Below, piece after piece: positions 1-29,978 of a DNA stretch of 64,000 nt. Positions within the stretch are counted from its first letter, which is position 1. Every line of letters begins with the position of its first letter. A program made the position numbers and the translations under genes. Source of the DNA: an uncultured Verrucomicrobiota bacterium (GTDB lineage Bacteria > Verrucomicrobiota > Verrucomicrobiia > Opitutales > Opitutaceae); NCBI GenBank assembly GCA_903904685.1, contig CAIVDS010000092.1, positions 1-64,000 on the forward strand, given 5' to 3'. The notes under the pieces are model-generated. The model was not told the origin of the DNA. It worked only from the letters and a program-made list of their open reading frames with translations, and searched no databases.

Positions 1-204
1 GGAGTTGCGGAAGTGGAGGTGAAGCTGGGGATACCGCGTGCGGTAGAAGGCCTCGATGTAATTGGTGTGGAGGCGTTGGGCGGTGATGCTGTCGCCCGCC
101 ATCACCCAAGTGTCGTTGTCCTTGAGGGCGAAGGACGGTTCGGCGGCGGAAATCCGGCTGCAAAATGCAGCGAGGAACAGGAGGACGAGAGGTTTCATTT
201 TCAT
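1..204 (-). CDS. Secreted SGNH/GDSL-type hydrolase, N-terminal fragment (cut by window edge)
   Basis: Only the first 68 codons lie in the window. The protein starts MKMKPLVLLFLAAFCS, a clear signal peptide ending near ISAAEP, and then reaches WVMAGDSIT. GDSIT is block I of SGNH hydrolases, with the nucleophile Ser. The residues after it (RLHTNYIEAFYRTRYP) follow the pattern of rhamnogalacturonan-acetylesterase-like SGNH enzymes. A second in-frame ATG at 198 could also start it. It lies 14 bases downstream of giant protein A on the same strand, so it is probably co-transcribed. The expected role is an extracytoplasmic esterase acting on ester groups of a glycan. The family call is good; the substrate is unknown because the rest of the gene is missing. 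Confidence 0.75.
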   Translation of the reverse strand, partial: MKMKPLVLLFLAAFCSRISAAEPSFALKDNDTWVMAGDSITAQRLHTNYIEAFYRTRYPQLHLHFRNS

Positions 205-218
205 AGGGTGAGTGATGG

Positions 219-3200
219 TCAAGGTTTCGGTGGCGTAGTCGAGAATCGCAATGGCCAGAGCTTGTCCGGCGACCCTTTGAGCACCAAGCCGGCATTGAAC
301 GGCGCGAAACCGAAGCAGTATCCGCGAAACATAACTTGGTTCCAGCCCGGGCGCAGGGAGAGTGTCTTGGCGGCCACCTGGTAACGGATATTATTGGAGG
401 TCTTGAAATCCGTATATTTGCCGACGTTGATTGGCTCGCCGTTCACAAACCAACGCAGCGGGGTCATGAGGTGACCTTGAAAATCAAATTCAACTTCCGT
501 CGCGGCGGGCGCGTAGATCCAGGTGACGCCATACCAGACCTGTCCTCCGGTTCCGAGTTTCACGCGGGTGTCGAGGTCGGCGATGGTGGCGGGCTTCCAT
601 GTCACCGAGCCGAGATGATTCCAATACCCTTGGATGATGTCTCCCTGATAGACGGCGGCCGTGTCCACTTTGTCATCGGGCGGATATTTCTGGGCCTCGC
701 AGAACTCCTGCGTCGCCACTTTCCAATCCTTGTTGGTGCCGGGCATTTTTCCGTTGGGATCCTTGGTCAATTTTTCTGCGCCGGGACCGCCGAAGGGTCC
801 GCAAATCAACCATTTTTTAACGGTGATGCCGTCTTCGATTCCGGTGAACTGCACGGGAGCCCAGGAACCCGGATAAAGGCGGGCTTCGCTCGGTTCGTCG
901 TAGGTTTCCTTGCTGGCGGTCGCGTCGCTGTTGGCCCACCAGAATTTATTATGGCCTCCGAAATTGGCGCTGAAATTGATGAGCGTATGAAGATCGCGGC
1001 CAAACGGCGTCTTCAACGAAGGCAGGGCTGCGCGGGGAATCGCCGCGACCAGCACGAGACCTTTGTTATCCGCATCGATGGAGTAACCGTAGCGTGCGTC
1101 CGCAATGGCGCCGACGTGCGCAAAGGAAACTTCGCCGACGGGAGTGCGATAGGTTTGCGGACTGGCCGGCAACCTGCCTTCCCACGAGGGATACATGCCC
1201 ACGCCAACAGGCTCGACCTTGGTGCCATTTTTGAAAACTCCAAAGACGAAGCGCGTGTCTCCCGGTCGACCGTTGGAGGAACCGGGTTTGGCTTCGGGAT
1301 TGCCCTGGAAGTAGAAGTCGAGGGTGTGGGAAAGCTGGTCGTGCGTGAACATGCGCTGCAGGGGAGGGAGCGGCTTGGGTTCGAAGACATCGCTGAATCT
1401 CGCATGCCAGCGCAAATAGAGATGGTCGGCGTCGTAGAGGCAGCGCACTTCCACGGTTTGGTCCTTGTCGGATTGATATTGCACCGGATCGCAGGATTCC
1501 CAGCCTGTCAGGGAACCGTCCAGCACGGCCCCGCCCAATGCGGGCGCAAACCGGGCAATCTTGGCGGTGCCCGCGCCGCCGCGGATGGTGAGGGCGATTT
1601 CCGGAGGCGCGGCGATCTGCGAAGAGGAGAGCGAAACGGTTTGTTGCAACGCCGTGAGGGGCTTGACGGGATTTTCCGTCAGCGACCATCCTTCCGTTTC
1701 AAAGAAGGTGGGAGTGTATTTGCCAAGGCCGAGATAGATTTTCCCGTTATTCTTGTTGGGAAACACCGACCCGGTGAAATACTCGCCCGGCAACAGGAAC
1801 AATCCTCCTCTGGCCGCAGAGACGCGCCTGCCATCGGGGAAAAGGGTATCCACATAGAGTCCATCCTGCGTGTAAAGGAGGATTCCGCAGCGCGATTGAT
1901 CGGTGACGCTGAGGAGTCCGTTTATCGGACGGTGGATGCGCATGCCTCCATACATCTCGCCCGAGCGCGCCGTCCATTGGAGGGCGGTTCTTCCGACGCG
2001 CCATTTTTGCCTAAGGTTCCCGTCCTTGTCGGGCGCGTAGAAGGAGATTTTATGCTGCGCCCCTTCGTTGGCATTGAAGCTGTAGCCGCTTCTCGCCTGG
2101 ATGTAGATGCCTTCGGACGAACCGTCCGCCTGCGTCCAGTCGCTGGTAAAACGATCGCCGACTTCATTGCCGCCATGCAGGGCGTCCACGACTCCTTTGG
2201 ACCGCGCCTCGAAAACGGGGTCCGTCAGCACTTTCGTCCATTCCTTAAAGACGGGGTTGCCGTGGGCATCGAAGCCTTCCGGGGAAACACGCCATGCATC
2301 GCGGCCGCCCATGTTGATGGCGAGGAACGAGAGGTTTTCGAGCCAGTTCTGGCCGTGAGCCGTGACGAAGTTCACTGGCAGCGGAGTGGGGGTCAATTCG
2401 GCTTCGTCCACGATTCCGTTCCCGTTTGCGTCGTGCCAGAAGGCATATTTCGCGTCTTTACCCTCCCCGGCCTTGATCAAGGCGGCGGAGAGCGCGCAGC
2501 GTTCGGGAGTGACGTGAAAGACGACAAACCGCGTGGCGCTTACGATGTAGAGCTGACCGTTGGCGCGGGACAGGAGGAATTTACCGGGGAACGTGTCGAG
2601 ACGGTCGGGGTTGATCCCCAAGTGCGGATCTGTTTCCAAAGGCCACACCGCATTAACGGCGCAGGTGTGTTTTTCATAATCCATCTTGAAGCGAACGAAC
2701 CAGCCTTCCTGCCCTTGGATATACAAATCCTCCGGATGCTCGGGATCGACCGCATACCCGGAATTATTGGTGAAGGTCTGGTAGGTCTGAAAATCCCTGA
2801 TCAATTCACCGGTGTCCGGATTCCATTCCGCCACTCGGTTCGGCCCCGCTTTTTCAACGATGATCAACCGGTCTTTGCCTTCCGCATCCTTCCAAGTCGC
2901 CAGCTTGCCGGGCGCCATCAGAGTCATCGGGTCATATGCGCCTGGTTTTTGCGCGGCCATTTTCCCGAATGTGCGCAAAATCTTTCCGTTCGAATCCAGC
3001 TGATAGACTTTATTGGCTTTGGAATCGCTGAGATAGAAGCGGCCTTTGCTGTCCGCCTTGAGGTCGAACGGATTGATATCGGCTGAAACTTTAAAGGTGG
3101 TTTGCAACGGCCCTGAGGGAAGTCCGTTTTGAAGCGCCATCGAGCTGACGAGGAATCCTTTCTCATCCGTGTGGAGAACATACAGGCGGCCTTTTTGAAC

Positions 3201-4178
3201 GAACAACCCCTGGGGTTTGGAAACCGGAATGGTGGCGAGCACCTTTCCGTCCGCGCCTTCATGAACGGTGATCAGGTTGGCGAAGTCGCTCTCGCTTTCG
3301 ATGTGCCTTGTCCAATTTTTGAGTTTTTGCGGAATGATTTTCCCGCGTTGGGCGATGTAAACAAGAGTGCGTTGGGCGGCTTCATCTTTCCACGCCGTCA
3401 TGGACGTGACCCAGCCTTCGGGAGGGTAGGAGTTGACGCGGTTGCATCCCGGGCTGCTGCCGAACGATTTGCCATCCGCCCGATAGACAAACTTCGGGCC
3501 TCCATCGGTGCTGAACGCCCACACGGTTTCCCCATCCGTCGCCACGCTCGACCCACCCGCCGCGCCGCCAGAAGTGAAGGATTTGATGAATTGATCCGGC
3601 GATACCCCGGGCTTCGTGAGATCGACCATCGGGCAGTTCAGGCCGTTCTCGAGGTATTGGTAATAAAAAGCAGCGATTCCATTGGACGCGACAGACACAT
3701 CCCCGAAGGGTGCGGAGACAGGATCACCGCCGAACGGCACTTTCAGCTTTTCCGCCGGCGCATCCACCCGAGGCCACCACCCGGAGATCGCTCCGGCATA
3801 TTTGGGAATGATCGCATGCCATTCGTCGTCGATTTCCCACTTTTTGGCGGGCATGTAAATCCCCTTGACGGCGTATTGGCCGGGAGGGAGTGGCATGAAG
3901 TTCTCATCCAGACCATCCCATGTTTCCGTAAAGCGGCCACTGTTTTCAGCCGTGACGGTGCGCGGAGCCCCGGCAACAAACGTGCTGAGTATCCAGTCGG
4001 TGTTTTTGGGGTCCACGATGGCAAGGGTGACCAGGTAGGTGCGTGGCAATGAGCCGTCCGCCGGGAGTTGGTAGGTGACCGGAACGCCGATGGGGGTTCC
4101 AGCGGAAGATGGCGACGCGGCTCCGGCCCAACTAAAGGCCAGCAAGAGCAGAACGATCCAAGCGAATGATGATTTCAT
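219..4178 (-). CDS. Giant secreted FlgD-Ig / beta-propeller / CBM9-like protein, paralogue A (1319 aa)
   Basis: No enzymatic function is recognisable. Residues 1-21 are a signal peptide (MKSSFAWIVLLLLAFSW). Residues about 33-110 resemble the FlgD Ig-like fold (FTETWDGLDENFMPLPPGQY). About 150-860 is a repetitive NHL/propeller-like region (for example KADSKGRFYLSDSKANKVYQ). Within it a 12-residue EF-hand-type loop DANGNGIVDEAE sits at 583-594. About 878-1100 is a CBM9/DOMON-like domain (VLDGSLTGWESCD, CLYDADHLYLRWHA). About 1120-1319 begins WLICGPFGG and reads as a beta-sandwich of the LRPGWNQVMFRG type. It is closely similar to B throughout and less so to C. Only 13 bases separate it from B, so it is probably the product of tandem duplication in one operon. 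I infer a secreted or surface glycan-binding scaffold. Confidence 0.85.
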   Translation of the reverse strand: MKSSFAWIVLLLLAFSWAGAASPSSAGTPIGVPVTYQLPADGSLPRTYLVTLAIVDPKNTDWILSTFVAGAPRTVTAENSGRFTETWDGLDENFMPLPPGQYAVKGIYMPAKKWEIDDEWHAIIPKYAGAISGWWPRVDAPAEKLKVPFGGDPVSAPFGDVSVASNGIAAFYYQYLENGLNCPMVDLTKPGVSPDQFIKSFTSGGAAGGSSVATDGETVWAFSTDGGPKFVYRADGKSFGSSPGCNRVNSYPPEGWVTSMTAWKDEAAQRTLVYIAQRGKIIPQKLKNWTRHIESESDFANLITVHEGADGKVLATIPVSKPQGLFVQKGRLYVLHTDEKGFLVSSMALQNGLPSGPLQTTFKVSADINPFDLKADSKGRFYLSDSKANKVYQLDSNGKILRTFGKMAAQKPGAYDPMTLMAPGKLATWKDAEGKDRLIIVEKAGPNRVAEWNPDTGELIRDFQTYQTFTNNSGYAVDPEHPEDLYIQGQEGWFVRFKMDYEKHTCAVNAVWPLETDPHLGINPDRLDTFPGKFLLSRANGQLYIVSATRFVVFHVTPERCALSAALIKAGEGKDAKYAFWHDANGNGIVDEAELTPTPLPVNFVTAHGQNWLENLSFLAINMGGRDAWRVSPEGFDAHGNPVFKEWTKVLTDPVFEARSKGVVDALHGGNEVGDRFTSDWTQADGSSEGIYIQARSGYSFNANEGAQHKISFYAPDKDGNLRQKWRVGRTALQWTARSGEMYGGMRIHRPINGLLSVTDQSRCGILLYTQDGLYVDTLFPDGRRVSAARGGLFLLPGEYFTGSVFPNKNNGKIYLGLGKYTPTFFETEGWSLTENPVKPLTALQQTVSLSSSQIAAPPEIALTIRGGAGTAKIARFAPALGGAVLDGSLTGWESCDPVQYQSDKDQTVEVRCLYDADHLYLRWHARFSDVFEPKPLPPLQRMFTHDQLSHTLDFYFQGNPEAKPGSSNGRPGDTRFVFGVFKNGTKVEPVGVGMYPSWEGRLPASPQTYRTPVGEVSFAHVGAIADARYGYSIDADNKGLVLVAAIPRAALPSLKTPFGRDLHTLINFSANFGGHNKFWWANSDATASKETYDEPSEARLYPGSWAPVQFTGIEDGITVKKWLICGPFGGPGAEKLTKDPNGKMPGTNKDWKVATQEFCEAQKYPPDDKVDTAAVYQGDIIQGYWNHLGSVTWKPATIADLDTRVKLGTGGQVWYGVTWIYAPAATEVEFDFQGHLMTPLRWFVNGEPINVGKYTDFKTSNNIRYQVAAKTLSLRPGWNQVMFRGYCFGFAPFNAGLVLKGSPDKLWPLRFSTTPPKP

Positions 4179-4191
4179 AAATGAGAGGATT

Positions 4192-7100
4192 TTATGGCGC
4201 GGGAGGCTGGCCCGAGAATCGTAACTTCCAAATGGCCGCCGGATCTCCTTTGATCACCAATCCGGCGCGCGGTCCATAGCCGACGGAAAATGTGCGAACC
4301 ATGATCTGGTTCCAACCAGCCTGCAATTTTACCACTTGGGTGACATCCTGCGGCGGAACCTTCGCTTTCCCTTTGTCCAGATTGAACGGCTGGCCGTTAA
4401 GGTACCAGCGCGTGAGATTCATCTTGAAGCTCTGAAATTCGACGGGAATTTCGGCGACGGTGGAGGAGTAAATCCACGTGGTGGCAAACCAGACTTGCGC
4501 ATTTGTTCCAAAATGAAGCCGGGTGTCGAGATCGGCAATGGTGGAGGGCTTCCAACGCAAATTGGCGGGGCTGCCCCAATAGCCGTTCACCATCGGTCCC
4601 CTGAAAACTTCGTTCGGGTCCATCTTGCCGCTGTCCGGCGGGTAAACGGCGGTTTCGAAAAACTTCTGGACCTCATTTTTGTCACGTGGACTCCAAGAGA
4701 ATTTCTCCGCACCTGGGCCGCCAAACGGCCCGCAAACGAGCCAATTGCGAACTGGGGCGCCATCACTTATCCCCTGGAACGTCACAGGAGCCCAAGAACC
4801 GGGATAGAGCCCTGCCTCGGTCGGTTCGTCATAGGTCTCGCTGCTGGCCGAGCCGTCGCTGTTGGCCCACCAGAATTTATTGTGTCCGCCAAAAGTGGCT
4901 TCAAAATTCACCAGTGTCCGCAGGTTGTCATCGAACGGTTGATTCAAGGCGGGGATCGCCGCGCGGGGAATTGCCGCCGCGATCACAAAGCCTTTGCCGT
5001 CCGGGTCCAGCGCATATCCCATCTGCGCGCCGGAGATCGCTCCAACGTGGGCAAACGAAGTTTCACGAACGATCGTGCGGTAAGTCTGCGGTTGGCCTGT
5101 TCCCGGCCATGTAGGGTAATACCCGACACCCACCGGTTGAAGGGAGGTGCCGCTCTTGAACAACCCGAAAGCAAAGCGCACATCGCCTGGGCGACCGCCC
5201 GGCGCACTTTTAGACGAAGCGTTCGTATTGCCCTGAATGTAGAAACTGAGCGTGTCAGCCAGTTGATCGTGGGTGAAAATCCGAGGCAGCGGCGGCAGCG
5301 GCTTGGCTTGGAAGGTGCCGCCGAGGCGGGCGTGCCAGCGCAAATAGAGATGGTCGGCGTCGTAGAGACAGCGGGCTTCCACGGTCTGATCCTTCCCGGC
5401 GCTGAATTGCACCGGATCGCACGATTCCCAGCCGGCCATGGAACCGTCCAGCACGGCACCGCCCAACGCCGGCGCAAACCGGGCAATCCTGGCGGTGCCC
5501 GCGCCGCCCCGCAGCGTGAGGGCGATCTCCGGCGGAGCGGCGATCTGCGAAGAGTTGATCGTCAGTGTCTTTTGGACCGTGGTAAGCGGTCTCACTGGAT
5601 TTTCCTTCACCGACCAGCCCTCGACCTCGAAAAACGTCGGTGTGTATTTGCCAACGCCAATGTAAATCCTGCCGTTGTCCTTGTTCGGGTAAACGATACC
5701 CGCAAAAAATTCTCCGGGCAGTTGATAAATGGAACCCCGCCGGTCTGGCATCGTTTTCAGGTCCGGGAAAAGCGTGTCTACGTAGAGCCCTTCGTCTGTG
5801 TAGAGCAATACACCGCAGCGGGTCTGATCAATTACGCTGACAAGCCCGTTGATCGGCCGGCGTATGCGCATGCCACCATACATCTCACCCCTTTTCGCCG
5901 TGTCTTTAATGACCGCACGACCCACCCTCCACCTCTGTTCGAACTCGCCGTCAGGTTTCGGCACATAGCGTGAAATTTTGTATTGCGCCCCCTGGTTGGC
6001 GTTAAAGCCCGGACCGCTTCGTGCCTGGACATAGAGATCGCCCTTCGGCGTCTCATCCGCCTGCACCCATGAGCCGAAAGTGTCGCCCAACTCATTGCCT
6101 CCATGGAGAGCGTCCGCTTTTCCCGCAGCTCGTGCCGCGAAGGCCGGATCGGTGACCACCTTTTTCCAATCCGTGAAGATCGGATTGCCGTGCCCATCGA
6201 AACCACTCGGCGAAAGGCGCTGCACATCGGCGCTGCCGTTAACCACCGCGAGGTAGGAAAGGTCGGATGTCCAATTCTGGCCGTGATAGCTCAATGGGCG
6301 CTCCACCGAACTGGGTGTCAATTCGTCGTCGTCCACACGACCATTGCCATTCGCGTCATGCCAAAGGGATATTTTCCCCTTTTCGCCTGCGACAAGGCCC
6401 GCGGAAAGCACCCAGCGGTCCCCGTCGAGACGATAAACATTATGGCTTCGCTCGCAGGCAAGGTAAGTGCGGTTGTTGACACGGATCACCCGCGGTTTCG
6501 ACAAGCCCGGCAGCCGGGGATCATTGCCGACGTCCGGCCAGACAGCGTCCACAGTCCACGTCTGTTTGTCGAGGTCCATTTTGAACCGTGTCAGCCAATT
6601 GCGATGTCCGAGAATATACAAATCTTCGGGATGCTCATCATCGATCGCGTAGCCATCGTTCGCCTTGGTTTGATAGGAGGTGAACTCGCGCAGCAGCTTG
6701 CCGTCCTCGGCGTTCCATTCGCTCGTTCGGTTCGGTCCCGCCATTTCCACAATAATCAAGCGGTCGTGTCCCTCGGTATCGCGCCACGTCGCCAGCTTCT
6801 CGGGTTCCATCAACGTTTCCCGGTCGTACGCACCCGACTTTTGGACCGCCATGTTTCCAAAGGTGCGAAGCACTGCACCCGCAGTATCGAGTTGATAGAC
6901 TTTGTTTGCCTTTGGATCGCTCAAATAAAAGCGCCCGTGGCTGTCCACCTTCATGTCGAATGCCTTGATGGCGGCGGGCACCGCGAACACCCGCTGCCAT
7001 TTGCCATCCGGCACGCCGGCATTAAGCGTGGCGGCACTCACCGCCAGCCCCGCGCCGTCCGCATGCAATGCATAAAGCTTTCCGCCCTGCACGGAGAGAC

Positions 7101-8073: not shown

Positions 8074-8229
8074 GGAAGAATGGGGGAAATCAGAAGTCGG
8101 GACGGGGTCGGATGCCGTCGGAGTGTTTGATGGTGATGGCGTTCATTGGGCGCGGATTAAATGACGGGCCGTGATCGCGGTGCATTTTTACCGTGCCAAA
8201 AGCATGAAGTTTTCTCTTTTTGCGCTCGG

Positions 8230-9168
8230 CTACTCGCCGAACAGTTTCTTTAAGGTCGGCTCCATCGCCTCGGCCCAGACCTCGTAGCCCTTGGGGGTGG
8301 GGTGCAGAAAGTCTCCCATGATGTCTTTTGAAATCGTGCCGTCGGCGCCCAGGAACTTTGCGCCGATGTCGAGGAACGTGATGCCGTCCCGGCCGTCGAA
8401 CGCGGAGATGAGTTTGTTGATCTCCTCGAGTTTTTGCCGGCCCGCGTCGGGTTTCTCGCCGCGGGGGAATATGCCGAGAAGGAGGATTTTTGTCGCGGGG
8501 GTGCGCTGATGGATTTCAGTGCAGATGGCGCGGATGCCCGTTGCGATGTCGGCGCTGGAATTGCTGTCGCGATTGTTGGTGCCGATCATGACCACGGCGA
8601 CCTTTGGGGAGTATCCGTCCAATTCCCCCTGTTGGAGCCGCCAGAGCACGTTTTCAGTCATGTCCCAGCCAAAGCCGAGATTCACGACATTGCGCGGTTC
8701 GTAATACTTTTTCCACACGTCCTTTCCCTCCATGAAGTGGGTGATGGAATCCCCGATGAAGATGAGCGCGGGCTTGCGTTCGCGAACAAGCGCGCAGCGG
8801 GAGTTGTGCCGCTGTTCCCAGTTGTAACTGGACCAATTGCGATTTTGGGTGACCGGGATGACGGTGCGAGGAGGGGTGGGCGCGTCTCCCTGCGCATCGA
8901 GGGTGGTCGTGGCCACGGGGCTGCTGTCGAAGGACCGGGCTTTGACGACGGCCTTGCAGGGCAACTGGAGGGGAGCGAGGTAGACGCCGGCACCTTTCTG
9001 GTCAGGGTCGGAACCGTTGATCGTATAATAGATGACGGCACCGGGTGCGGCGGTGATCGTCACCAGTCCCGTGGCGTCACGCTGAATGACGGGCCGGGCG
9101 ATTTCGGCCTGGGCGGCGGCGGTCGCAAGCAGCGAGACAGCCACCAATGAGAGATAGGGGTTAAACAT
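8230..9168 (-). CDS. Secreted SGNH/GDSL hydrolase with N-terminal chitobiase-C-like domain (312 aa)
   Basis: A signal peptide (MFNPYLSLVAVSLLATAAAQA) is followed at about 25-100 by a small beta-sandwich with the CHB_HEX_C pattern (AAPGAVIYYTINGSDP). The SGNH esterase domain follows at about 120-312. Its blocks are visible: FIGDSITHF (nucleophile Ser), NLGFGWDMTENVLWRLQ, VVMIGTNNRD (Asn of block III) and MGDFLHPTPKGYEVWAE (Asp and His of block V). It resembles the PAF-acetylhydrolase/GDSL-like group often found in polysaccharide loci. It lies 27 bases downstream of giant protein C and before B on the same strand. The likely role is removal of acyl groups from an extracellular carbohydrate; the exact ester is unknown. 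Confidence 0.85.
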   Translation of the reverse strand: MFNPYLSLVAVSLLATAAAQAEIARPVIQRDATGLVTITAAPGAVIYYTINGSDPDQKGAGVYLAPLQLPCKAVVKARSFDSSPVATTTLDAQGDAPTPPRTVIPVTQNRNWSSYNWEQRHNSRCALVRERKPALIFIGDSITHFMEGKDVWKKYYEPRNVVNLGFGWDMTENVLWRLQQGELDGYSPKVAVVMIGTNNRDSNSSADIATGIRAICTEIHQRTPATKILLLGIFPRGEKPDAGRQKLEEINKLISAFDGRDGITFLDIGAKFLGADGTISKDIMGDFLHPTPKGYEVWAEAMEPTLKKLFGE

Positions 9169-9195
9169 AAAGATATGGATGAATGATGTGCCGGT

Positions 9196-13134: not shown

Positions 13135-13237
13135 GAATAGGAGAATCTTACGTTTTTTGGGTTTCGCCTGAAACTCGCGCCGGTCGGATGGCTGCAGAAT
13201 CGGCCTTGCCCACCAGCACGGTGCATATTGGGGATAA

Positions 13238-16347: not shown

Positions 16348-16404
16348 AAGATTTTTAATCCCAAAGTTCCGATTGGTTTCGATTTTTTCGGAATGAGGCG
16401 GGCC

Positions 16405-20661: not shown

Positions 20662-20690
20662 GGGATTTTTAAAGGGCAATGCCGGGCAGA

Positions 20691-23600
20691 TTATTTTTCG
20701 AAGATGAATTCACCCCAGTTGAGCGGCTCGGGTCGCAGTTCGAAGACCACGTCGTCAACCAATCCAGTCTGTTGATTGGCCCAGTAGGTGCGCAACCGGG
20801 TGCGCACACCGGCGGGATCGCCATGGGTGACGCCGACATCGCCACGCAGGGTGAGCTTGGGCGTCGGCTTGATGCCGAGCGCGGCGAGGGGAATCGCCGC
20901 CTCGACGATGTAGCCCTTGCCGGCGTTCACCTTCACTTTGATATCCGCCTCGGCGATCACATCGACCCAGTCGACCTGCCAGTTCTGGACCACGCCGGAG
21001 CTGAAGGTGCGCGGTTTCTTCTGGTCGCTTACGAAACGGTAGAGCACCGCCGTGGGTTTGCCCTTATAGTTGCCGATGGAGAGGCGCAGATCGCCTTTCG
21101 CCGCTTTGGTGCGCTTGGCGTTGGCCGCAGGATCGGTGCCCAGTTGCAGATCAACGGTGTCGCCGCAAGCATACATCTGGGAGATGTCCTGGGCGCCGTT
21201 GACCCACGGGGTGGCGTCCTTGACCTGCCAGCCGATGTAGAGATTCGTGTCATCGTAAGCCAGTGCCGTGCGCACACTGGCGTCGTCGCTTTTCTGGTAG
21301 GAGAGGGGAGAGCAACCCTTGAAGTCCTGATCAAAGTTGCCGCCGAGGGTAATGGTCGCTTGGTGCACGACCAGAGAGCCACTGGAGGTCCCTTGGAGTG
21401 TTTGTTCGCGCAGTGTCAGCGCCTTCTTGGCATCGGCCTCGCTGATCTGCAACTTGCCGCCCGGGATGACGACAGTCTTCTCAAGTCCGGCAAGGGCGAC
21501 GTTCCATACTCCGGCTTTGCCCGCTTGAATATATACTTTTCCATCCTTGGCCTGTGTGATGGAACCGCCGAAATCCTCGCCCCCGCTGCCAGCAGGCAGG
21601 TTGGTCATATCGGAACCGGGGAGCGGGTTGGCAGGCCAGTTCCATTCGAAAACATTCCCGTTGAACAACCGGGTGACGAAGAATCCTTCGGAGCTAAGCA
21701 CCCACCATTCGCCAAGATTTCCATTGATCGCCCAGAAGCCGCCCACGCCCGGCAAATTGGCCGTTCCGACCGGCCCGAAAGCTCCGCGAAAGAGGCCAGC
21801 CTCCGGTGCCGGTGCAGCATGTGAGCCATGCACCTGGAAATACGGGTTGGGGTAGGTCCAGAGCAACTTGCCGCTGGTGAGTTCGAAGCAGTGCCAGAGG
21901 AAGCCCGCCGGGTGATCTTTCACCGCAAGGTTGATCAGGATGGTCCGGTTGTCGGCGCTTGGCATGGCGCAGCTGTAGTTGGTCTTGTAGCCCTCGCTCA
22001 TGGCGTCCGGCATGGTCTTGAGTTTCGAGAGATCGTATTTCGGCGCGCCGCCGGTGGTGAACCCATCCGGGGTGAGCGCCTTCAATTTCTTGTCCTGCGA
22101 ATCGAAGCCGTAGAAGGTCAAGTCTGGGCCAAGATTGAGTGACCAACTGTTGCTACCGGCACAGAAAAGTTTTTCAGGCAACTGCTGAACCTCCGTCGGT
22201 TGCCGCTGCCCATCCCCCTTCAGGTCGGTCCAGAGTTCCGTCCCTCCCTTATTGTTACTCAACTCCGCCCGCAGCGCATATTGGGCGTCGCCCAAGCGTT
22301 CCCAGACTTGGATGCTGCCGCTGCCATATGTCATCTTGTTGGTAACAAGATAGAGTTTGCCATTCGCGCCCTCGCGGAAAGTGGCGAATTCGTGATAACT
22401 CTTGTCAAAGGTGCCAAGGCAAACCGCAGGGCCGCCCTTGGGATCGATCCGCCATTCGCAACCTTCGCCGACCATCAGATCGGGGTCGCGCGGGTTGATC
22501 GCTCCCCCCGAAGCACCGTAATGAGTGGGTCCAAAATATTCCTTCAGCAGCGTTGTTTGGGCCGGAGCACCACCCAAGCCGTAGGACCAGACGCTCACCC
22601 GTTTTGGGGTTTTGTCGTGCTCCATCACCCAGAGCTTGCCCTTCGGATCTACCGCAATCCCGCTGGGCATCAGCATACGATTGGGCTGCCAGGGGCCGAT
22701 TTGGCGTCCGCCTTTTTCGCCGATGCGAGCGCCAATTTCCTTGCCGTCGGTTCCGAAGATGGCGACCTGATGATCCGGCTCGCCGAGGCTGACGACAATG
22801 CGCCCTTGGGGATCGATGGTGAGGGAACGCGGGTTGTGCAGGCCAGTAATAAGGGATTTGGAAGCGCCGCTGCCGAGATCGACCGTGCGCACTTCGTCGC
22901 CGCAAATAACATAGGCGGTCTTGGCATCCAGCACCTTGATCGCCGCCGCCAGTGGCAACGGGAAATGTTTCTGCATAGCACCGGTCGCACCATCGAGCAC
23001 CATCAATTGATTGTCGTCGGTGGTCGCGTAGAGCAGACCATCGTGGGCATCGAATCTAACTATGTGAGAAGCTCCAATGCCGGCGTCGGCCGGGCTCAGA
23101 ATATGGTTTTTGCGAGTAGGCCATGTTTGGTAAGCCCCGGTTTTTGCATCCACGCGGGTCATAAGCACCGGCGACTGACCGTGGGTGGTATGCAACACGT
23201 AAACGATGTCGCGATCCACGGCGATCACCTCGGGATCGGCTCCCCCGGTGGTGTTCTGCAGGCTCCAGATCAACTTGCCGTCAAAATCCGTGGCGATCAG
23301 ATGCCGTCCGCCTTCGGCTCCGTTGCAGGCAAGATACATGCGCTCGCCGTCGGTGACCACCGCGCTCGGCACGCCGTGGTCGCCCAACCAGAAGTCATAA
23401 GGGGTGGCCTGCCAAGGAGCCCGACCGCTAAATGAAGCCCATCCGCGCAGGCTGAGAGTGACGCCAGGATGGGCGATAGCCTTCCAGGTATAATTGCCCG
23501 CTGGCACCGGCTGGCCCGGGGTGCGGAAGGTGGCATCGGTCAGGCCGTCCCACTGCACTGTCACGGGCCCCTTCTCGCGAGCATCTTGATTAAGCAAATG

Positions 23601-24566
23601 GCGCACCACCGTGCCATTTTGATCGATCAGATTCAGCGAAACGTAGCCGTTCAAGGGCATGTCGAACGTGATGGGTTTGAAGCCCGGCCACTCAAAGCGG
23701 CGAACCAATCCGGTCCAATCCACCGTTGGCAATCCTTCGCGCATGTTCACCGGGAAACTGCGCCCATCGGCGACGCGCACCGGTTGCGGCTGGACCTTGC
23801 CTTTAGGTTCCAAGGTCGCCCAGCCCCAGTCCTTGAAGGCGCGGAAGGTGAATATCCGGTCTGGGGTCTTCGCGTCATCGGCGAAGATGTCCTTGATGGT
23901 GATCCGTCCGAATGCTCCCGCGGTAAAGTTGGGCTCGATGGTGAAGCGGAAACGCTCGCCGATTTTTGGAGCATGGCCTGCGGGGCTGAGCATCTTCCAA
24001 GGGATGGCGATTTCTTGCGCGTAGCCCTTGCCGCCGGCATCCACTTTGAACGCCTGCTTCACCCCTTGCTCGGCGGCGTTATCCAAGGCGGGCATCAGAT
24101 TGTTGTCTTTGGCCCCGTTGCCAGCGCCGGGACTGGAGCGTTCGACCACCGACCGGCCTTGGTTGTCACGCCAGGCATCCCACCAGGTGATGCTCTTTTC
24201 CGATGTGTCAGGATAAAGGATACAACGGAACTGGAAGCAGTCGCCATTGAAACCGTGTCCTCCGAGGGACTCGGGGTTGTTGAGCGGAGTGGGATCTTTC
24301 CAACGGGCCAGCAGATAGAGATTTTCGCTGTCATACATCGCGTGGACCCACACCGAGGAGTTGTCGCGCAAGTGTTCCAGTTCGCCGCAGGCGAAGACAC
24401 CGCCGCTGAGATCCCAGTCGGCATACTGGCCGTCGATCGCAACCGGCCCCGGTGAGGGGAGAACCCGCAAACCGTGGTTTTCGGTTTCGGTGGCAAACAG
24501 GGTCGTCGCAACAAGCACAGAGGCGAGCGCGACAAATCCGTGAAGGATATTGGATCGGGGTATCAT
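20691..24566 (-). CDS. Giant secreted protein E: CBM9-like / FlgD-Ig / propeller / CBM9-like (1291 aa)
   Basis: The frame stays open further upstream into the preceding gene, but the ATG at 24566 starts a proper signal peptide (ILHGFVALASVLVATTLFA) followed by TENHGLRVLPSPGPVAIDG, which aligns with the mature start of D. The order is N-terminal CBM9-like domain (AIDGQYADWDLSGG, AMYDSENLYLLARW), FlgD-like domain (TVQWDGLTDATFRTP, VPAGNYTWKA), propeller, and C-terminal CBM9-like domain (YDDTNLYIGWQVKDATPW). The EF-hand-type loop is degenerate here (DLKGDGQRQPTE, Lys at position 3). It lacks the helical insertion of D, which explains most of the length difference. It is 58 bases downstream of G. 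Predicted role: secreted or surface glycan binding. Confidence 0.84.
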   Translation of the reverse strand: MIPRSNILHGFVALASVLVATTLFATETENHGLRVLPSPGPVAIDGQYADWDLSGGVFACGELEHLRDNSSVWVHAMYDSENLYLLARWKDPTPLNNPESLGGHGFNGDCFQFRCILYPDTSEKSITWWDAWRDNQGRSVVERSSPGAGNGAKDNNLMPALDNAAEQGVKQAFKVDAGGKGYAQEIAIPWKMLSPAGHAPKIGERFRFTIEPNFTAGAFGRITIKDIFADDAKTPDRIFTFRAFKDWGWATLEPKGKVQPQPVRVADGRSFPVNMREGLPTVDWTGLVRRFEWPGFKPITFDMPLNGYVSLNLIDQNGTVVRHLLNQDAREKGPVTVQWDGLTDATFRTPGQPVPAGNYTWKAIAHPGVTLSLRGWASFSGRAPWQATPYDFWLGDHGVPSAVVTDGERMYLACNGAEGGRHLIATDFDGKLIWSLQNTTGGADPEVIAVDRDIVYVLHTTHGQSPVLMTRVDAKTGAYQTWPTRKNHILSPADAGIGASHIVRFDAHDGLLYATTDDNQLMVLDGATGAMQKHFPLPLAAAIKVLDAKTAYVICGDEVRTVDLGSGASKSLITGLHNPRSLTIDPQGRIVVSLGEPDHQVAIFGTDGKEIGARIGEKGGRQIGPWQPNRMLMPSGIAVDPKGKLWVMEHDKTPKRVSVWSYGLGGAPAQTTLLKEYFGPTHYGASGGAINPRDPDLMVGEGCEWRIDPKGGPAVCLGTFDKSYHEFATFREGANGKLYLVTNKMTYGSGSIQVWERLGDAQYALRAELSNNKGGTELWTDLKGDGQRQPTEVQQLPEKLFCAGSNSWSLNLGPDLTFYGFDSQDKKLKALTPDGFTTGGAPKYDLSKLKTMPDAMSEGYKTNYSCAMPSADNRTILINLAVKDHPAGFLWHCFELTSGKLLWTYPNPYFQVHGSHAAPAPEAGLFRGAFGPVGTANLPGVGGFWAINGNLGEWWVLSSEGFFVTRLFNGNVFEWNWPANPLPGSDMTNLPAGSGGEDFGGSITQAKDGKVYIQAGKAGVWNVALAGLEKTVVIPGGKLQISEADAKKALTLREQTLQGTSSGSLVVHQATITLGGNFDQDFKGCSPLSYQKSDDASVRTALAYDDTNLYIGWQVKDATPWVNGAQDISQMYACGDTVDLQLGTDPAANAKRTKAAKGDLRLSIGNYKGKPTAVLYRFVSDQKKPRTFSSGVVQNWQVDWVDVIAEADIKVKVNAGKGYIVEAAIPLAALGIKPTPKLTLRGDVGVTHGDPAGVRTRLRTYWANQQTGLVDDVVFELRPEPLNWGEFIFEK

Positions 24567-24624
24567 AAGATTGAGGGAGAAGGTTTGGAGAAATTCGGTA
24601 CTCTGGTCGGGCGGGGCTGGCGTC

Positions 24625-26343
24625 CTATTGGTCTTTGATCTGCAGCTTGACCAGGCGCTGGTTGCCGCTGTCGAAAACCACCGCTCTTTGACCGCGAGCG
24701 GCGATGACGCGCGGGGTATTGAGTTTTGAGAGATCGTCACCCGCTGCATCTTTCGCCCCAAAGGCGGCCAGTTCCCGACTCGAGGAGAGATCAAAGCAGA
24801 CAACGCGATGCCGCGCCGAATCGGAGACCCACAATTTCCCGGCGTCGGCGGAAAGCCATACGGGACCGGCGAATTGCTGGGCGGCGCCCGCCCCCCAGGT
24901 TTTCCAGCGGCGGGTTTCTTTCCAGCCGTCTCCGTCCCGTGCCAGCTCGATGACAAATCCATCCCCGGCAGCGACCAAGGTATCGCGGCCTGTCGCGGCG
25001 AGAGAGGTCCACTCTTTCACAGGCGTTGAGGTGAGAAATTGGACCGTACCAACGTCGCTCTGAAAGTCGCCGGTATTGGAAATATTGACCGCCGTCGCGT
25101 CGCCTTTCTTTTCAAGCACCAGCAAAATGGGACGCTTGTTCAATTCGATAACCGCCGCCGCCATTGCGTCCTTGGGCAGCGCCGTGGGTGTGTCGATGCG
25201 GTTGATGCGAACTTCCTTGTCCATTTTGCCGAATATCATGGCCGGCTGGCCCCACATCTGGCCATAGCCGACCACGACGTCGGAGTTCTGCGTCGTAGTG
25301 GCAAAAATATCGGGTTGCGGGATGCCGAAGTGCAACGGCGTGGCCGGGCCGTCGTTCCAATTCCAATTGCCGGATAGCCACCAAGTGCGGCCTTGGCTGT
25401 CGAGTGTCAGGGTGCGGCAGACAGGAATGGCGCCAATCCTTCGGAATGGATCAAAACGTTTCTCCTTCTCCTGCCATTTCAGCAGGTGCAGCGTGCCATA
25501 TATACCTGAGACGGCGAACAAGTCCGGTCCGGCCTTCGCCATTCCGCGAGGGTTCACGACTTCGGCCTGCTCGTCGACATGGCCGATGAACGACCCCGAA
25601 TTGCCGCCCAGCACGACGCCGGGAGCAGGTTGCCACTCCGCGTCAAAGCGTCGGAGTGTGCTGTGTCCGCTGGCGCCATAGACAAAGCCGCCCAGGAACT
25701 GCGTGCGCTCACCAGGAATCGTTCCCACCAAGGCGAGGCCGTCGGGAGCATTCGCATCGAGTCGGTGGGCTTTCCCATCCTGAATGATGAACACGGTCCC
25801 GTCGGGGCCCATGTCGATGCTGAATGGCTCTTTCTTCAAGGTCGCCACCGATTTTTTATCCCCAGCGGTGTTCACCAGAAACACCTCCGGGCCTTTGGAT
25901 GCGGCGATCCATCCGTCATGGCTGGAGAACGCAAGGTGCTCGGCCTCGATCTTCAAGGGAGTGGAAGGCGAACCCGCCGGAGCGTCGATGGAGAGCGTGT
26001 GAAGCCCTCCATCAAGACAGAGCAGGAGCGTGTCGCCCAAGATGGCGATGGAGTCCCGGTAGATATCCGGGCGGTCGCCGGGAATGCGATAGGCGGCGAG
26101 GAGGCGTCCATCGGCGGCATAACGGTTCAGCACACCTACGCCTCCGCGATCCCAAAATGCGCCATAACGGTCAACCACGACACCGAGTCCAGCGGCTGGT
26201 TTTACGCCGAAGCGGACAAGCGAGGCGCCCTGTTCACCGGAATTTCCAAGAATACCCGCACATTGAATGACGTCGGCGCGCAGCGGCAGGCCGGCGAAAC
26301 CGCATATTATCACGGCCAAAACGCTTTGAATCTGTTTTTTCAT
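24625..26343 (-). CDS. Secreted beta-propeller protein G without CBM9-like or FlgD parts (572 aa)
   Basis: The ATG at 26343 overlaps the stop of F (ATGA) and is preceded by a strong GGAGG about six bases upstream, one of the few clear ribosome-binding sites in the cluster. It also gives a signal peptide (MKKQIQSVLAVIICGFAG), so it is preferred to the longer frame starting at 26373. The mature protein is made of short beta-repeats (SIDMGPDGTVFIIQDGK, TLTLDSQGRTWWLSGNWN, QFAGPVWLSADAGKLWVSD) consistent with one or two NHL/YWTD-like propellers. There are no CBM9, FlgD or EF-hand elements, unlike its neighbours. Translational coupling to F suggests the two act together, perhaps as a stoichiometric partner. 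Specific function unknown. Confidence 0.8.
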   Translation of the reverse strand: MKKQIQSVLAVIICGFAGLPLRADVIQCAGILGNSGEQGASLVRFGVKPAAGLGVVVDRYGAFWDRGGVGVLNRYAADGRLLAAYRIPGDRPDIYRDSIAILGDTLLLCLDGGLHTLSIDAPAGSPSTPLKIEAEHLAFSSHDGWIAASKGPEVFLVNTAGDKKSVATLKKEPFSIDMGPDGTVFIIQDGKAHRLDANAPDGLALVGTIPGERTQFLGGFVYGASGHSTLRRFDAEWQPAPGVVLGGNSGSFIGHVDEQAEVVNPRGMAKAGPDLFAVSGIYGTLHLLKWQEKEKRFDPFRRIGAIPVCRTLTLDSQGRTWWLSGNWNWNDGPATPLHFGIPQPDIFATTTQNSDVVVGYGQMWGQPAMIFGKMDKEVRINRIDTPTALPKDAMAAAVIELNKRPILLVLEKKGDATAVNISNTGDFQSDVGTVQFLTSTPVKEWTSLAATGRDTLVAAGDGFVIELARDGDGWKETRRWKTWGAGAAQQFAGPVWLSADAGKLWVSDSARHRVVCFDLSSSRELAAFGAKDAAGDDLSKLNTPRVIAARGQRAVVFDSGNQRLVKLQIKDQ

Positions 26344-29300
26344 GGTGCAACCTCCAACATGACGTCGCCCCATAGGTTCGGGGTGAGCATGATTTCTCCC
26401 GGCACGTCGTTGACCAGCCCGGTGGCTTGGTTCGCCCAGTAGTTGCGGAAAATATTCGTCGTGCCTTCGGCGTCGCCGTAGATGACGCCGAAATCACACC
26501 GCAGAGGCTTGCCGATAGCGGCGGCGTCCAACCCCAACTCGCTCAGCGGCACCGCCGCTTTGACGAGGTAGGAATTCCCGCTGCGGGAGACGGCAATTCT
26601 GGCCGATTCGAGTTTCCTCACCGAATCTACTTTCTCGCTGCGCCACGGGCATTGGAAGACGACGCTGTCGATCGCTCCCGGCAGGCGATGACGGTAGAGC
26701 ACCGCGATGTTGCCACCCTGGAAGGGGGCGATGAGGAGGCGCAAATCGCCGGGGACGGGTGCGCTTCGCTTCGGGTTGGCTTTCGGGTCCGTGCTGATCT
26801 GCAGATCCACGCTGTCGCCAGTCTTGAAGAGCATCTGCCAATCCTTGCCGTTGTTGACCCATGGAGAGGCGTCTTTGACCGAGTATGAAAGATAAAGCGT
26901 TTTGCCATCGTGAGCCGCCCTCACCATCACGGGGAACTGCCCGCTGGGGCTCCACTGGACCACTGGATCGAGCGTCCATTCTCCCTGCTTCCCGTCCACC
27001 GCCGGAGCGACTTTGACAAACGGGATTCTGGCGCTGCGCACCGGAGCGGCTGCGGCCAGAATGCGCGTTTTGTTGCGCTCGGCGGCCGCGGCCTGTGCAG
27101 GCCTGACGGTCAGCAGCCCTTTATTGCGAACGGTTTCGCGCAGGCCATCGATACGATAGATCCGGTATTCGATGCCGCCGCCTTGGAAATAATAATTACC
27201 GTCGCTCTTGGAGCGCCCAAAGGTGCCGCCGAAACATTCTCCGCCGAGGATGCCGATACCACCGGCCTGCGGATTATTCATCAGGCGGCAGTCGGGGAAC
27301 ATTTCGTCCACATAGAGGCCGTCGGTCGTCATGACGAAGGCGCGCCCGTGGTTGCCGTTCATAAGGGTGACGTCGGCTTGGTCGTCCAGCGGAGCCACGC
27401 CAGAGAAGAAGAGGACGCCCTGGAGTTCGCCAGCCGTCGGCAGCGGTGAGGAGTGGGAACCGCCAACGCCCACCCAGCGGTTGGGAAAAGTCCAGAGCAG
27501 TCGCCCGTCGGGAGCGAAAGCCCGCATAGGGCTGCTGTTGAACAGAATGTTGTCGAAGCGGTCCACAGTGCTTTCTGCCGATTTGTCGTTGAGCGAGAGG
27601 TTTATCGGGCGGGCCGCTTTCACTGCTTCGTTGAGCGGCGGGTATTTTGGCGCGCCGCCCGGCCACCAGCCTTCGGGGCGCAACACGATCAATACGCTCT
27701 TGCCTGCGACAACTGCCGGAACCCGCATCGTCAAATTCTGGAAGTCATGGCTCCAGCCTGAGCCGGCAAAACTCTCGGCAGCAGTGGAAAATTCGATTTC
27801 ATCCGCCTGCATCTTGCCATCGCCATTCTTATCCACCCACAACATGCCGAACCCGTGGTCCGGTCTGCCGCGCGTGCCCGGCTGGTATTTCTGATCTGGG
27901 TAATCGCGGCTGAACGCATCCACAAATGCCTGCGGTGGATTCCAATTGTGCGCATAGGAATACTGATGCGCATCTGAGAGGCAAGCCAACGGCTTCAAGC
28001 TATTGTCCGGGAGTAATTCCTCAATGTAAGTCACCTTGCCGCAAGCGATGACGAACGTTCGTCCATCCTGCCGCCAAAAACGGTAGGTGCGCCCCTCTTC
28101 ACCACCCAGAATGGAAATCGGTTTGGCGGTTTTTGCGGCAAAATCGAGCTTGAACAGCACTCCCTGGCCGATCCAGTGCGTCGAATCCTCCGGGTCGAAT
28201 CCGCAGTTAGAAGATCCATAGGCCGTGGGCCCAAAAAACTCCTTCCACATGGTCTCCGTTTTCGGATCATAAGCGGCGAAGCGTTTCGGCTGCCAGCGTT
28301 CTGATTCCGTCACCCAAAGGTGCCCATCCGGCCCCAAAGCCAACCCTGCGGGATGGTGCAAGCGCAATGGGTCATACGGCCCCGCCTTCACCTCCGCCGA
28401 ACCCTGGGTGATACCTCCATCCTTGCCGATCTTGCCCACTGTTTTCCCGTTTCTGTCGAAGATATGCACTACATCCAATTGATCGTCGCTGATGTAAAAT
28501 TCCCCCTCTTTATCCACGGCCAATCCGGCAGGGATGCCTGTCAGCGTCACAATCTCCCGGCGGACCTGTCCTGTAGCGGGATCAATCTCCACCAACCGCT
28601 GCCCCGAGATGGCATAGAGGCCATTAGCCCCGGCGGCAAGAGCCACTGGATTCGCCAAGGGGAAAGCGCGACCGACTACTCCGGTTGCCGGATCGATTTC
28701 CAAAACTTCATTTTTGGATTGGTCGCCCAAATAGAGCTTGCCCTTGAAAAGAGCCAGACCCGCCATGGCAATCCGGTCGGGAGCTTTGTTGGGAGAACCG
28801 GGCCCCACCCGATAGGTGCCAAGGATTGCTGAACGGGCGGAGCGGGAATAATCGACGACGTTCCCCGTAACCAGATCGAATCGGAACAGGGTGATTGTGT
28901 TCTCCGCGCTCCAATTCGGCTTACTGCGATCTACTTTCTGGCCCCAGCCGGTGCCGTCGTAGGCGGCGTAGAGGTATTTTTCGTCGGCGGCTATCGCCAC
29001 GCGGTTCAAGCCATGGCCATTCGGGGCGATGTAACCGCGCACCAACTTGCCGTCCGGCTCAAGCTGGGAAATTTCATGGCCTCCCTCGCAAACCGATGCC
29101 CCTAGGAAAACATAGCGCCCATTGCTCGCCGCCGAGTGGAACGTGCCGTGGTTGGAGCCGGGCGCGTCACAAAAGGAGAATACGTATTGCGGCTTCAAAC
29201 CGGGGTGCGAAAGGGAGCGCCATTGGTATTTGCCGGGAGGCACCATGTCGCCGTTGTCGTTCGCGCCGTCCCAGACGATCCGGTGCGTTCCGGCGCTCAT

Positions 29301-29933
29301 CGGCTGACCCGAAATCAGGTTGCGCACGCGGAGGCCTTGCTCGTCCTCGATCACGATGGTCGCCTTCCCCTCCATCGGTTGGTCAAACTGAAAGGCGATC
29401 TGCGAACGGAGGTCCTCGATGGTCCGTTCATATTCGGTCAAGCTGACGAATTGCCAGTCTTCAGGAGAGGCGGAAAGTCCCGAGTGGGGAGCCTTGGTCT
29501 GGGTTTGGAGAAATGTCTCGCGCAGGCGGGATGTCCCGAATGCCCCGCCCGGCCATGAAACGGCGATCCCCATGCGCAGTTTGTCCCAGCCGTCCTTGGT
29601 GTAAACCAGCCTTTCGTCCGGCACGCTGAACTCGTAAAACACGGTCTGGGCGGATGTCTGCACTCGGGCTTCCTTTTCGGAGAGCGTTACCACTTTGTCC
29701 GCAGCCAGCCCGAGCTGAACACCGATACCGCCCGCTTTGGCAGGCGTTTCGAACGAGGCAATGGAAACCTGCACCAGCACAGCGCCCCGTTGATGGTTGA
29801 GGCTGTAAGCCACTTTCGGCGACACTGCGCCTGAGACTACGATCATCTCGTCATCGCCTGCCACCGGGGCTCCCTGCAAGAAGCCCCCTGGATTCCAAAC
29901 CGCCACGATCAGAATAATGAGGGTCTTTTTCAT
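26340..29933 (-). CDS. Giant secreted protein F: FlgD-Ig / propeller / CBM9-like (1197 aa)
   Basis: First gene of the cluster by orientation. A signal peptide (MKKTLIILIVAVWNPGGFLQG) leads into an N-terminal beta-region of about 180 residues with no clear family. Next come a FlgD-like domain (THRIVWDGANDNGDMVPPGK), a propeller (VDKEGEFYISDDQLDVVHIF), an EF-hand-type loop DKNGDGKMQADE, and a C-terminal CBM9-like domain (AAHDGKTLYLSYSVKDASPW) ending NYWANQATGLVNDVPG, which matches the C-termini of D and E. It lacks the N-terminal CBM9-like domain of D and E. A palindrome lies 25-45 bases upstream and a terminator of the preceding unit lies beyond it, so transcription of the whole cluster probably starts just upstream of this gene. 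Confidence 0.84.
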   Translation of the reverse strand: MKKTLIILIVAVWNPGGFLQGAPVAGDDEMIVVSGAVSPKVAYSLNHQRGAVLVQVSIASFETPAKAGGIGVQLGLAADKVVTLSEKEARVQTSAQTVFYEFSVPDERLVYTKDGWDKLRMGIAVSWPGGAFGTSRLRETFLQTQTKAPHSGLSASPEDWQFVSLTEYERTIEDLRSQIAFQFDQPMEGKATIVIEDEQGLRVRNLISGQPMSAGTHRIVWDGANDNGDMVPPGKYQWRSLSHPGLKPQYVFSFCDAPGSNHGTFHSAASNGRYVFLGASVCEGGHEISQLEPDGKLVRGYIAPNGHGLNRVAIAADEKYLYAAYDGTGWGQKVDRSKPNWSAENTITLFRFDLVTGNVVDYSRSARSAILGTYRVGPGSPNKAPDRIAMAGLALFKGKLYLGDQSKNEVLEIDPATGVVGRAFPLANPVALAAGANGLYAISGQRLVEIDPATGQVRREIVTLTGIPAGLAVDKEGEFYISDDQLDVVHIFDRNGKTVGKIGKDGGITQGSAEVKAGPYDPLRLHHPAGLALGPDGHLWVTESERWQPKRFAAYDPKTETMWKEFFGPTAYGSSNCGFDPEDSTHWIGQGVLFKLDFAAKTAKPISILGGEEGRTYRFWRQDGRTFVIACGKVTYIEELLPDNSLKPLACLSDAHQYSYAHNWNPPQAFVDAFSRDYPDQKYQPGTRGRPDHGFGMLWVDKNGDGKMQADEIEFSTAAESFAGSGWSHDFQNLTMRVPAVVAGKSVLIVLRPEGWWPGGAPKYPPLNEAVKAARPINLSLNDKSAESTVDRFDNILFNSSPMRAFAPDGRLLWTFPNRWVGVGGSHSSPLPTAGELQGVLFFSGVAPLDDQADVTLMNGNHGRAFVMTTDGLYVDEMFPDCRLMNNPQAGGIGILGGECFGGTFGRSKSDGNYYFQGGGIEYRIYRIDGLRETVRNKGLLTVRPAQAAAAERNKTRILAAAAPVRSARIPFVKVAPAVDGKQGEWTLDPVVQWSPSGQFPVMVRAAHDGKTLYLSYSVKDASPWVNNGKDWQMLFKTGDSVDLQISTDPKANPKRSAPVPGDLRLLIAPFQGGNIAVLYRHRLPGAIDSVVFQCPWRSEKVDSVRKLESARIAVSRSGNSYLVKAAVPLSELGLDAAAIGKPLRCDFGVIYGDAEGTTNIFRNYWANQATGLVNDVPGEIMLTPNLWGDVMLEVAP

Positions 29934-29957
29934 GGGCGCTTTTTCTCGTTTTTAGAG

Positions 29958-29978
29958 GAAGATTCGGTTCCGATCTTC
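29958..29978. promoter_or_regulatory. Imperfect palindrome upstream of the giant-protein cluster (candidate operator)
   Basis: The arms GAAGATTCGG and CCGATCTTC are complementary except for one extra T and flank a TT centre. The site ends 25 bases before the ATG of F, the first gene of the run, and after the terminator of the preceding gene. It is not followed by a T-run on either strand, so it does not look like a terminator. A transcription-factor operator or a 5'-leader hairpin are both possible. Confidence 0.4.

Follow-up and report, generated by a model that had tools for sequence, protein, structure and literature searches.

Giant tandem-propeller proteins and esterases in a Verrucomicrobiota gene cluster: a candidate system for glycan capture and de-acetylation

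Introduction

How Verrucomicrobiota strains that lack SusC/SusD capture polysaccharides is a question raised by a gene cluster in an uncultured bacterium of the Opitutaceae (GenBank assembly GCA_903904685.1, contig CAIVDS010000092.1). The window, by which we mean the whole stretch of DNA analysed, is bases 1–64,000 of this 77,940-base contig (C92) in a 3.23-Mb assembly. At one end of it, eleven minus-strand genes code for six giant proteins (A to F), a smaller NHL protein (G), esterases, and a flavin adenine dinucleotide (FAD)-dependent oxidoreductase, and we asked what a block of this composition could be for.

The reading that we favour, at a probability of roughly 0.52, is that the block is a regulated cluster for the capture and de-acetylation of an O-acetylated glycan. 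The giants would bind the glycan through propeller and CBM9 faces, in the periplasm or at the cell surface, and the esterases would strip acetyl (or other acyl) groups; small products would enter through a transporter encoded elsewhere, a GH4 glycosidase and the oxidoreductase would finish the sugars in the cytoplasm, and an AraC-family regulator would turn the set on. With about 28 family members in the genome, and sub-lineages that appear to have moved between distant genomes, the locus would thus be one of many, with helpers that differ. A bolder and less probable reading is that the giants are a new, widely shared, horizontally exchanged family of glycan-active double propellers with an invariant Glu/Arg/Glu site, whose sub-lineages are specialised to different glycans. 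In some Verrucomicrobiota and Lentisphaerae they would replace SusD-type binding, and perhaps also the enzyme that acts in an endo fashion. A multi-copy, cross-class family with esterase partners offers a candidate, open to testing, for how glycans are captured (or cut).

Gene content and boundaries of the locus

Inspection of the open reading frames (ORFs) of the window confirmed the initial annotation in that all eleven genes are present, consecutive and on the minus strand, spanning 1–29933, with the terminal SGNH gene of the series truncated at base 1 by the contig end. These genes and those flanking them, with Pfam matches in brackets, are as follows.

34116–34976, plus: divergent AraC-family regulator, probably the local regulator (HTH_18 4.7e-22, AraC_binding 2e-10)
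32552–34057, minus: cytoplasmic GH4 glycosidase (Glyco_hydro_4 2e-44, Glyco_hydro_4C 1.6e-47; CHG motif)
31599–32486, minus: nucleoside hydrolase family protein (IU_nuc_hydro 2.4e-21)
30097–31404, minus: SGNH/GDSL esterase g00 (SGNH0), signal-peptide-like start (Lipase_GDSL_2 2.3e-12; motifs GGSLT, DMAHP)
26340–29933, minus: giant F, 1197 amino acids (aa) (FlgD_ig 5.7e-10, NHL 1.7e-7; structure model)
24625–26343, minus: NHL protein G, about 570 aa, partner of F (NHL 1e-4)
20691–24566, minus: giant E, 1291 aa (CBM9_1 1.7e-7, FlgD_ig 2.4e-6)
16405–20661, minus: giant D, 1418 aa, with CBM9 in two stretches, FlgD-Ig and propellers (CBM9_1 1.2e-9)
14569–16347, minus: CE20-type O-acetylesterase g05 (CE20/SASA), signal-peptide-like start (SASA 9.1e-19)
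13238–14572, minus: FAD-dependent oxidoreductase, PF12831 (FAD_oxidored 5.7e-115 over residues 28–437)
9196–13134, minus: giant C, 1312 aa (45% identity to A and B)
8230–9168, minus: SGNH/GDSL esterase, signal-peptide-like start (Lipase_GDSL_2 3.8e-25; motifs GDSIT, GTNN, DFLHP)
4192–8073, minus: giant B, 1293 aa (60% identity to A)
219–4178, minus: giant A, 1319 aa (structure model of residues 121–1319)
1–204, minus: partial SGNH gene, 68 aa (signal-peptide-like N-terminus, GDSIT motif)

The start of E was moved from 24962, where it had been placed too far upstream, to 24566, and that of G was revised to 26343. With these starts the gaps inside the block range from -4 to 156 bases (they had been given as 13 to 156 bases or overlaps, and the overlaps stand), and from -4 to 194 bases when the upstream same-strand genes are included. 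Seven large propeller proteins had been counted, which holds if G is included, the giants proper being six. The assignment of two SGNH esterases, one sialate-type esterase and one FAD oxidoreductase is borne out by Pfam, with the sialate-type enzyme being of CE20 type and the partial SGNH gene recognised by motif; its 68 residues gave no Pfam match, and 61 of them align at 38% identity with the start of a protein on contig C94.

Rather than ending at 29933, the locus is wider than the eleven genes, with SGNH, nucleoside hydrolase and GH4 genes upstream on the same strand and the AraC gene divergent from them. The SGNH gene g00 probably is part of the block, because a 76% identical relative adjoins a relative of E in the Spartobacteria genome UBA695. 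The eleven genes may be transcribed together with GH4; a promoter and terminator scan of 15000–34300 gave fewer sites than in shuffled sequence. Read by eye, the N-termini of the giants, G and the esterases are signal-peptide-like and these proteins are probably exported, and no export signal was noticed in the FAD oxidoreductase or GH4.

Pfam identified no transporter among the eleven genes, as initially described. In the 22 proteins of the window that were scanned, those of all cluster genes among them, there was no SusC/SusD-like match, TonB gene or recognised depolymerase. The locus is therefore not a standard polysaccharide utilisation locus, in agreement with the initial annotation, and its claim that glycoside hydrolases and lyases are missing stands for the eleven genes, among which none was recognised, but not for the surroundings, where GH4 lies within 3 kb. 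The lack of SusC/SusD is less remarkable than was suggested, as five other Verrucomicrobiota strains use polysaccharides without it, according to PMC11980603. That source describes a CAZyme (carbohydrate-active enzyme) gene cluster as neighbouring genes for CAZymes, carbohydrate-binding modules and carbohydrate esterases without SusCD or TonB, a description that covers the present locus with its CE20-type and SGNH esterases, CBM9 and GH4 within 34 kb. It resembles the Verrucomicrobiota clusters presented there in having export-type starts, esterases, carbohydrate-binding domains, a glycosidase and no SusC/SusD, whereas its bulk consists of giant tandem-propeller proteins and it has no recognised depolymerase. 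In place of the undescribed system first proposed, we thus prefer an apparently undescribed protein family within a known kind of cluster; a literature search yielded no paper on a giant double-propeller family among the matches listed.

Domain structure and predicted fold of the giants

All six giants are mutually homologous, with identities of 60% for A and B, 45% for A and C and for B and C, 40% for D and E, and 29% for E and F. Pfam recognises only fragments of them (FlgD-Ig, NHL and CBM9), NCBIfam gives only weak partial matches, and neither has a model that matches their whole length. CBM9-like domains had been proposed for the giants, and the CBM9 model (PF06452), which has a cut-off of 23.4 bits, scores 38.8 bits in D and 31.8 bits in E. 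At E 0.1 Pfam gives no match to it in A, B, C or F, where it is alignment to the same region that points to a CBM9-like domain. F is composed of an N-terminal sandwich, FlgD-Ig, two six-bladed propellers (residues 256 to about 943) and a CBM9-like C-terminus. E has FlgD-Ig, propellers and a C-terminal CBM9, with an N-terminal CBM9-like region by similarity to D, and A has a weak FlgD-like Ig match, two propellers, a CBM9-like region and an extra C-terminal sandwich.

AlphaFold2 models were made of F (42-row alignment; predicted local distance difference test score, pLDDT, 85.7; predicted template modelling score, pTM, 0.81) and of residues 121–1319 of A (24-row alignment; pLDDT 77.3, pTM 0.65). 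In fold comparisons, residues 256–559 of F match a six-bladed NHL propeller with Z 26.6 and a root-mean-square deviation (rmsd) of 2.7 over 240 residues, and A does so with Z 23.0 and rmsd 3.3, also over 240 residues. The second propeller of F is contained in joint matches to the LRP6 and megalin double propellers over residues 272–913 (about 430 aligned, rmsd 22 Å), the large rmsd presumably arising because the angle between the propellers differs. About twelve four-stranded blades can be counted by hand in the strand list of the model between residues 265 and 943, and the model of A gives the same tandem-propeller picture. As modelled, therefore, F and A have two tandem six-bladed NHL/YWTD-like propellers; they share the six-bladed fold and the tandem arrangement with NHL and YWTD/LRP6 propellers, and differ in being bacterial proteins that carry FlgD-Ig and CBM9-like domains, and presumably in the inter-propeller angle. 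Sequence searches of the PDB also reach NHL propellers, both natural and designed, although for the A type only above E 0.01. As the initial annotation had supposed, none of the 50 fold matches listed for F or A is named as a glycosidase, a polysaccharide lyase or a transporter; one of the F comparisons was largely confined to the first propeller, and coverage of the C-terminal parts of the giants was slight.

The strongest rival to a capture role is that the giants are themselves catalysts: as an undescribed family of propeller lyases or glycosidases they would depolymerise the glycan, and the locus would be an ordinary degradation cluster whose endo-acting enzyme had gone unrecognised. Propeller folds are known from several lyases and glycosidases, and the fold matches include an enzyme with a propeller, the amidating lyase PAL (3fvz; Z 22.4 and 21.3), which leaves room for the giants being propeller enzymes. 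In an alignment of 24 rows from both subfamilies (A4), the positions of one E-P-R group, W-x-D and E-x-F are invariant, and in a second alignment (A3; 42 rows with 21–65% identity to F) E283, E543, R551, W699, D701, E712 and E899 are conserved in at least 38 of the 42 rows, H262 in 37 and H827 in 36. Such conservation of charged residues across both subfamilies is, in our view, more than a plain scaffold needs. However, binding domains of the NHL and YWTD types lead the fold matches, those listed name no glycosidase or polysaccharide lyase, and the WxDxNGDG...E stretch of the second propeller (F residues 699–712), which is strongly conserved in both subfamilies with its W and D invariant, looks like a calcium-binding loop. 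We consider that catalysis by the giants is unlikely on balance, while deserving the most serious attention of the alternatives.

Esterases and GH4

The de-acetylation step of the proposed capture cluster would fall to g05 and the SGNH enzymes. Sequence comparison of g05 with the CE20 structures 9h4u, 7kmm and 9ega gave E-values of 1.4e-109, 6.2e-108 and 8.8e-105, each structure being matched in two separate stretches, a pattern that may or may not reflect the ancillary beta-sandwich that interrupts the SGNH domain in CE20. The CE20 motifs GQSNM and DxH, with an Asp/Asn option, are named in PMC12313940, and g05 has GQSNM at 122 and NIHP, the NxH version of DxH, at 418. Judged by these features, g05 is a CE20-type esterase. 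It is like Fl8CE20_II (9h4u), PpCE20_II (9ega) and XacXaeA (7kmm), as described there, in having GQSNM and a version (NxH) of the DxH motif, whereas its genomic context is one of giants and not a xylan or xyloglucan locus.

The GH4 gene has both Pfam domains of its family, well above the cut-offs (151.8 and 162.6 bits against 23.2 and 24.1). Its best PDB matches are 6-phospho-beta-glucosidases (1s6y, 1.4e-32), and of the three top-scoring matches it is the alpha-galacturonidase LplD (3fef; residues 14–429, 4.6e-31) that aligns over the greatest length, which hints no more than weakly at a glycan with uronic acids; the window protein has CHG where LplD has CHE. The GH4 and AraC genes are kept as a pair, at 85% and 72% identity, in a same-genus genome (G003) and, at 79% and 61%, in a same-family genome (G017), and there are no giant genes beside them in the 16 and 20 kb read. 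The pair looks older than the giant block and seems to have a separate history, and GH4 is not specific to the cluster.

The giant family in this and other genomes

A profile of D, E and F gave 63 matches in the same genome, many of them pieces of one gene, which rules out a unique locus. These correspond to about 28 giants, of which six belong to the window and 22 to other places, including one fragment where a contig ends, and at about 105 kb some 3.3% of the 3.2-Mb genome is devoted to this one family. Contig C12 was left out of the copy count, and of the enrichment test below, as foreign or misbinned: its stretch L112 is 99.9% identical over 17 kb to stretch L122 on contig C88 of genome G066, an assembly of a different genus, so one of the two assemblies probably holds a foreign contig.

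Among other genomes of the taxonomic family, 7 of 251 match the giants at E 1e-20 or better, one of them being G066, which shares the C12 stretch; at E 0.001 there are matches in 75 of 252, mostly to short NHL stretches. Strong matches are present in one of the 12 other genomes of the genus and missing from 11. When 387 genomes of the phylum, this one among them, were sampled, 44 had matches at E 1e-20. At most two candidates per genome were scored in the family and phylum searches, such that copy numbers there are lower bounds. Long matches occur in the Spartobacteria UBA695, Verrucomicrobia LW23, Lentisphaerae GWF2_50_93 and ADurb.BinA184, a Phycisphaerales metagenome-assembled genome (MAG) and Haloferula. 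Counting each piece separately, there are 43 and 49 matches in the two Lentisphaerae MAGs just named.

Neighbours of giants elsewhere in the genome

Association of esterases with giants was examined on the other contigs only, with C92 left out and with a uniform-placement approximation as the baseline. The inputs were 33 SASA matches, whose halves were joined to give 20 proteins, 33 of 34 GDSL matches (one under the cut-off was dropped) and the five long FAD matches of 16. GDSL esterases are enriched near giants, with 10 of 30 within 10 kb against 2.8 expected (P 2.3e-4; 7 of 27, P 0.009, with a four-gene cluster counted once) and 9 of 30 within 5 kb (P 1.4e-5; P 0.002 with that cluster counted once). 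SASA esterases are also enriched, less firmly, with 6 of 19 within 10 kb against 1.8 expected (P 0.006), or 5 of 18 (P 0.02) with two neighbours counted once. When 30 neighbours of giants, picked by hand and non-randomly (some for falling in a shared sequence cluster), were scanned with Pfam, ten were glycosidases or esterases: GH116, a rhamnosidase-type hairpin hydrolase, GH2, GH42, GH10, one CBM9 esterase and four GDSL proteins.

These neighbours also bear on a second alternative, in which the giants serve in a surface coat, in adhesion or in contact between cells, and the esterases edit the envelope glycans of the cell itself and not food. The resemblance of the folds to the LRP6, megalin and teneurin ectodomains, the many divergent paralogs per genome and the one copy that adjoins an exosortase gene are in keeping with such a role, but the proportion of glycosidases and esterases among the scanned neighbours is not, and neither is the divergent AraC gene beside GH4, which suggests nutrition; by eye, no C-terminal sorting signal was noticed in the window genes inspected. 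We regard a coat or contact function as distinctly improbable.

Several observations weigh against capture and de-acetylation as the role of the block. The strongly conserved charged residues of the propellers are no less suited to an active site than to a plain binding face. SASA esterases are not enriched within 5 kb of giants (2 of 19, P 0.26), nor are FAD oxidoreductases enriched near them (1 of 4). Among the 30 picked neighbours, seven have no Pfam match at 1e-4, several are unrelated (ClpB-like, RmuC, a Na/H exchanger of the antiporter type and exosortase), and a dehydrogenase is also present. Lastly, the membership of GH4 in the cluster is positional only, because the GH4/AraC pair occurs elsewhere without giants.

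Phylogeny and exchange of the giants

The giant tree has 56 rows, 27 of them own copies; the C12 row was retained and is identical to that of G066, and copies from other genomes are limited to the stretches retrieved. The C26 copy (L110) and the fragment at the end of C1 (L115) are outside the tree and the C102 copy (L100) is only partly in, while L112 and L114 are flagged as long branches of unsure place. Own copies require 18 label changes, of which at least 16 are forced by well-supported branches, compared with a shuffled mean of 19.0, and are thus scattered over the tree. This scatter rules out recent duplication as the source of the copies, with only some groups (such as L103b/L104b/L111) being close. 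F and D group with GWF2_50_93 copies, and A falls with two copies from that genome (support 92, drawn open). The partner of C in the tree is from UBA695, and those of E are from LW23 and UBA695 (support 80 at the last step).

Identities to the GWF2_50_93 relatives are 70% over 1403 aa for D, 68% for A and 64% for F, and those to UBA695 are 66% for C, 76% over 780 aa for E and 76% over 398 aa for SGNH0. The housekeeping control QueA, a thin baseline in being a single gene, is only 40% identical in GWF2_50_93 and 45% in UBA695, compared with 69–72% in G245, a genome of the same family in which the identity for D is only 58%. GC content is 58.8% for 1–31404 against 61.5% beyond 34100, and GC at third codon positions is 0.67–0.73 in the giants against 0.79–0.87 in three backbone genes. 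Together, the large contrast between giants and QueA and the lower GC values suggest that giants have been exchanged horizontally across classes. The expectation that the whole ordered set would recur in relatives did not hold, as this order was not found, but some pairs and sets are kept in distant genomes: close relatives of SGNH0 and E, and of the CE20 gene and C, lie together in UBA695, and F and G are adjacent at six loci (own C92, C58 and C102, Haloferula, G158 and GWF2_50_93). A third alternative is that horizontally mobile giant genes accumulated next to an AraC-GH4 pair that was already there, with no common function. This would account for the absence of giants beside the pair in the sequence read from G003 and G017, for nearest giant relatives in two different distant genomes and for the lower GC of the block, but we think it very unlikely given the tight same-strand packing with 4-base overlaps, the retention of F-G at six loci and the co-occurrence of SGNH0, E, CE20 and C in UBA695.

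Other origins were considered. A and F have no PHROG match and F finds no plasmid or phage record, on which grounds we reject a phage or plasmid origin, and the idea that the window contig is a contaminant is countered by MurJ on the same contig (55927–57501), which is 81–82% identical in three same-genus genomes. MurJ is, however, 51–56% identical in nine other same-genus genomes and 63–69% in four genomes of other genera, and it is not a clean lineage marker because the nine score below the four. Two types of MurJ are thus present within one genus. The window contig could conceivably contain an assembly join.

Additional observations

Elsewhere in the window, 37263–40502 on the minus strand codes for a large protein with pro-kumamolisin activation, TIG, LTD and DUF11 domains. 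The exosortase gene (5826–7385 of stretch L102) directly precedes a giant gene on contig C90. A URO-D family protein, identified by Pfam, lies between two giants in the same stretch (12633–13646), and belongs to a sequence cluster of six members, found in the giant stretches L102, L106, L113 and L053 and twice on the window contig beyond 64 kb (L005); URO-D proteins near giants could mean corrinoid-dependent demethylation of methylated sugars. On contig C26 (179854–182804), four SGNH/GDSL domain matches follow one another in a row and adjoin a giant-family gene.

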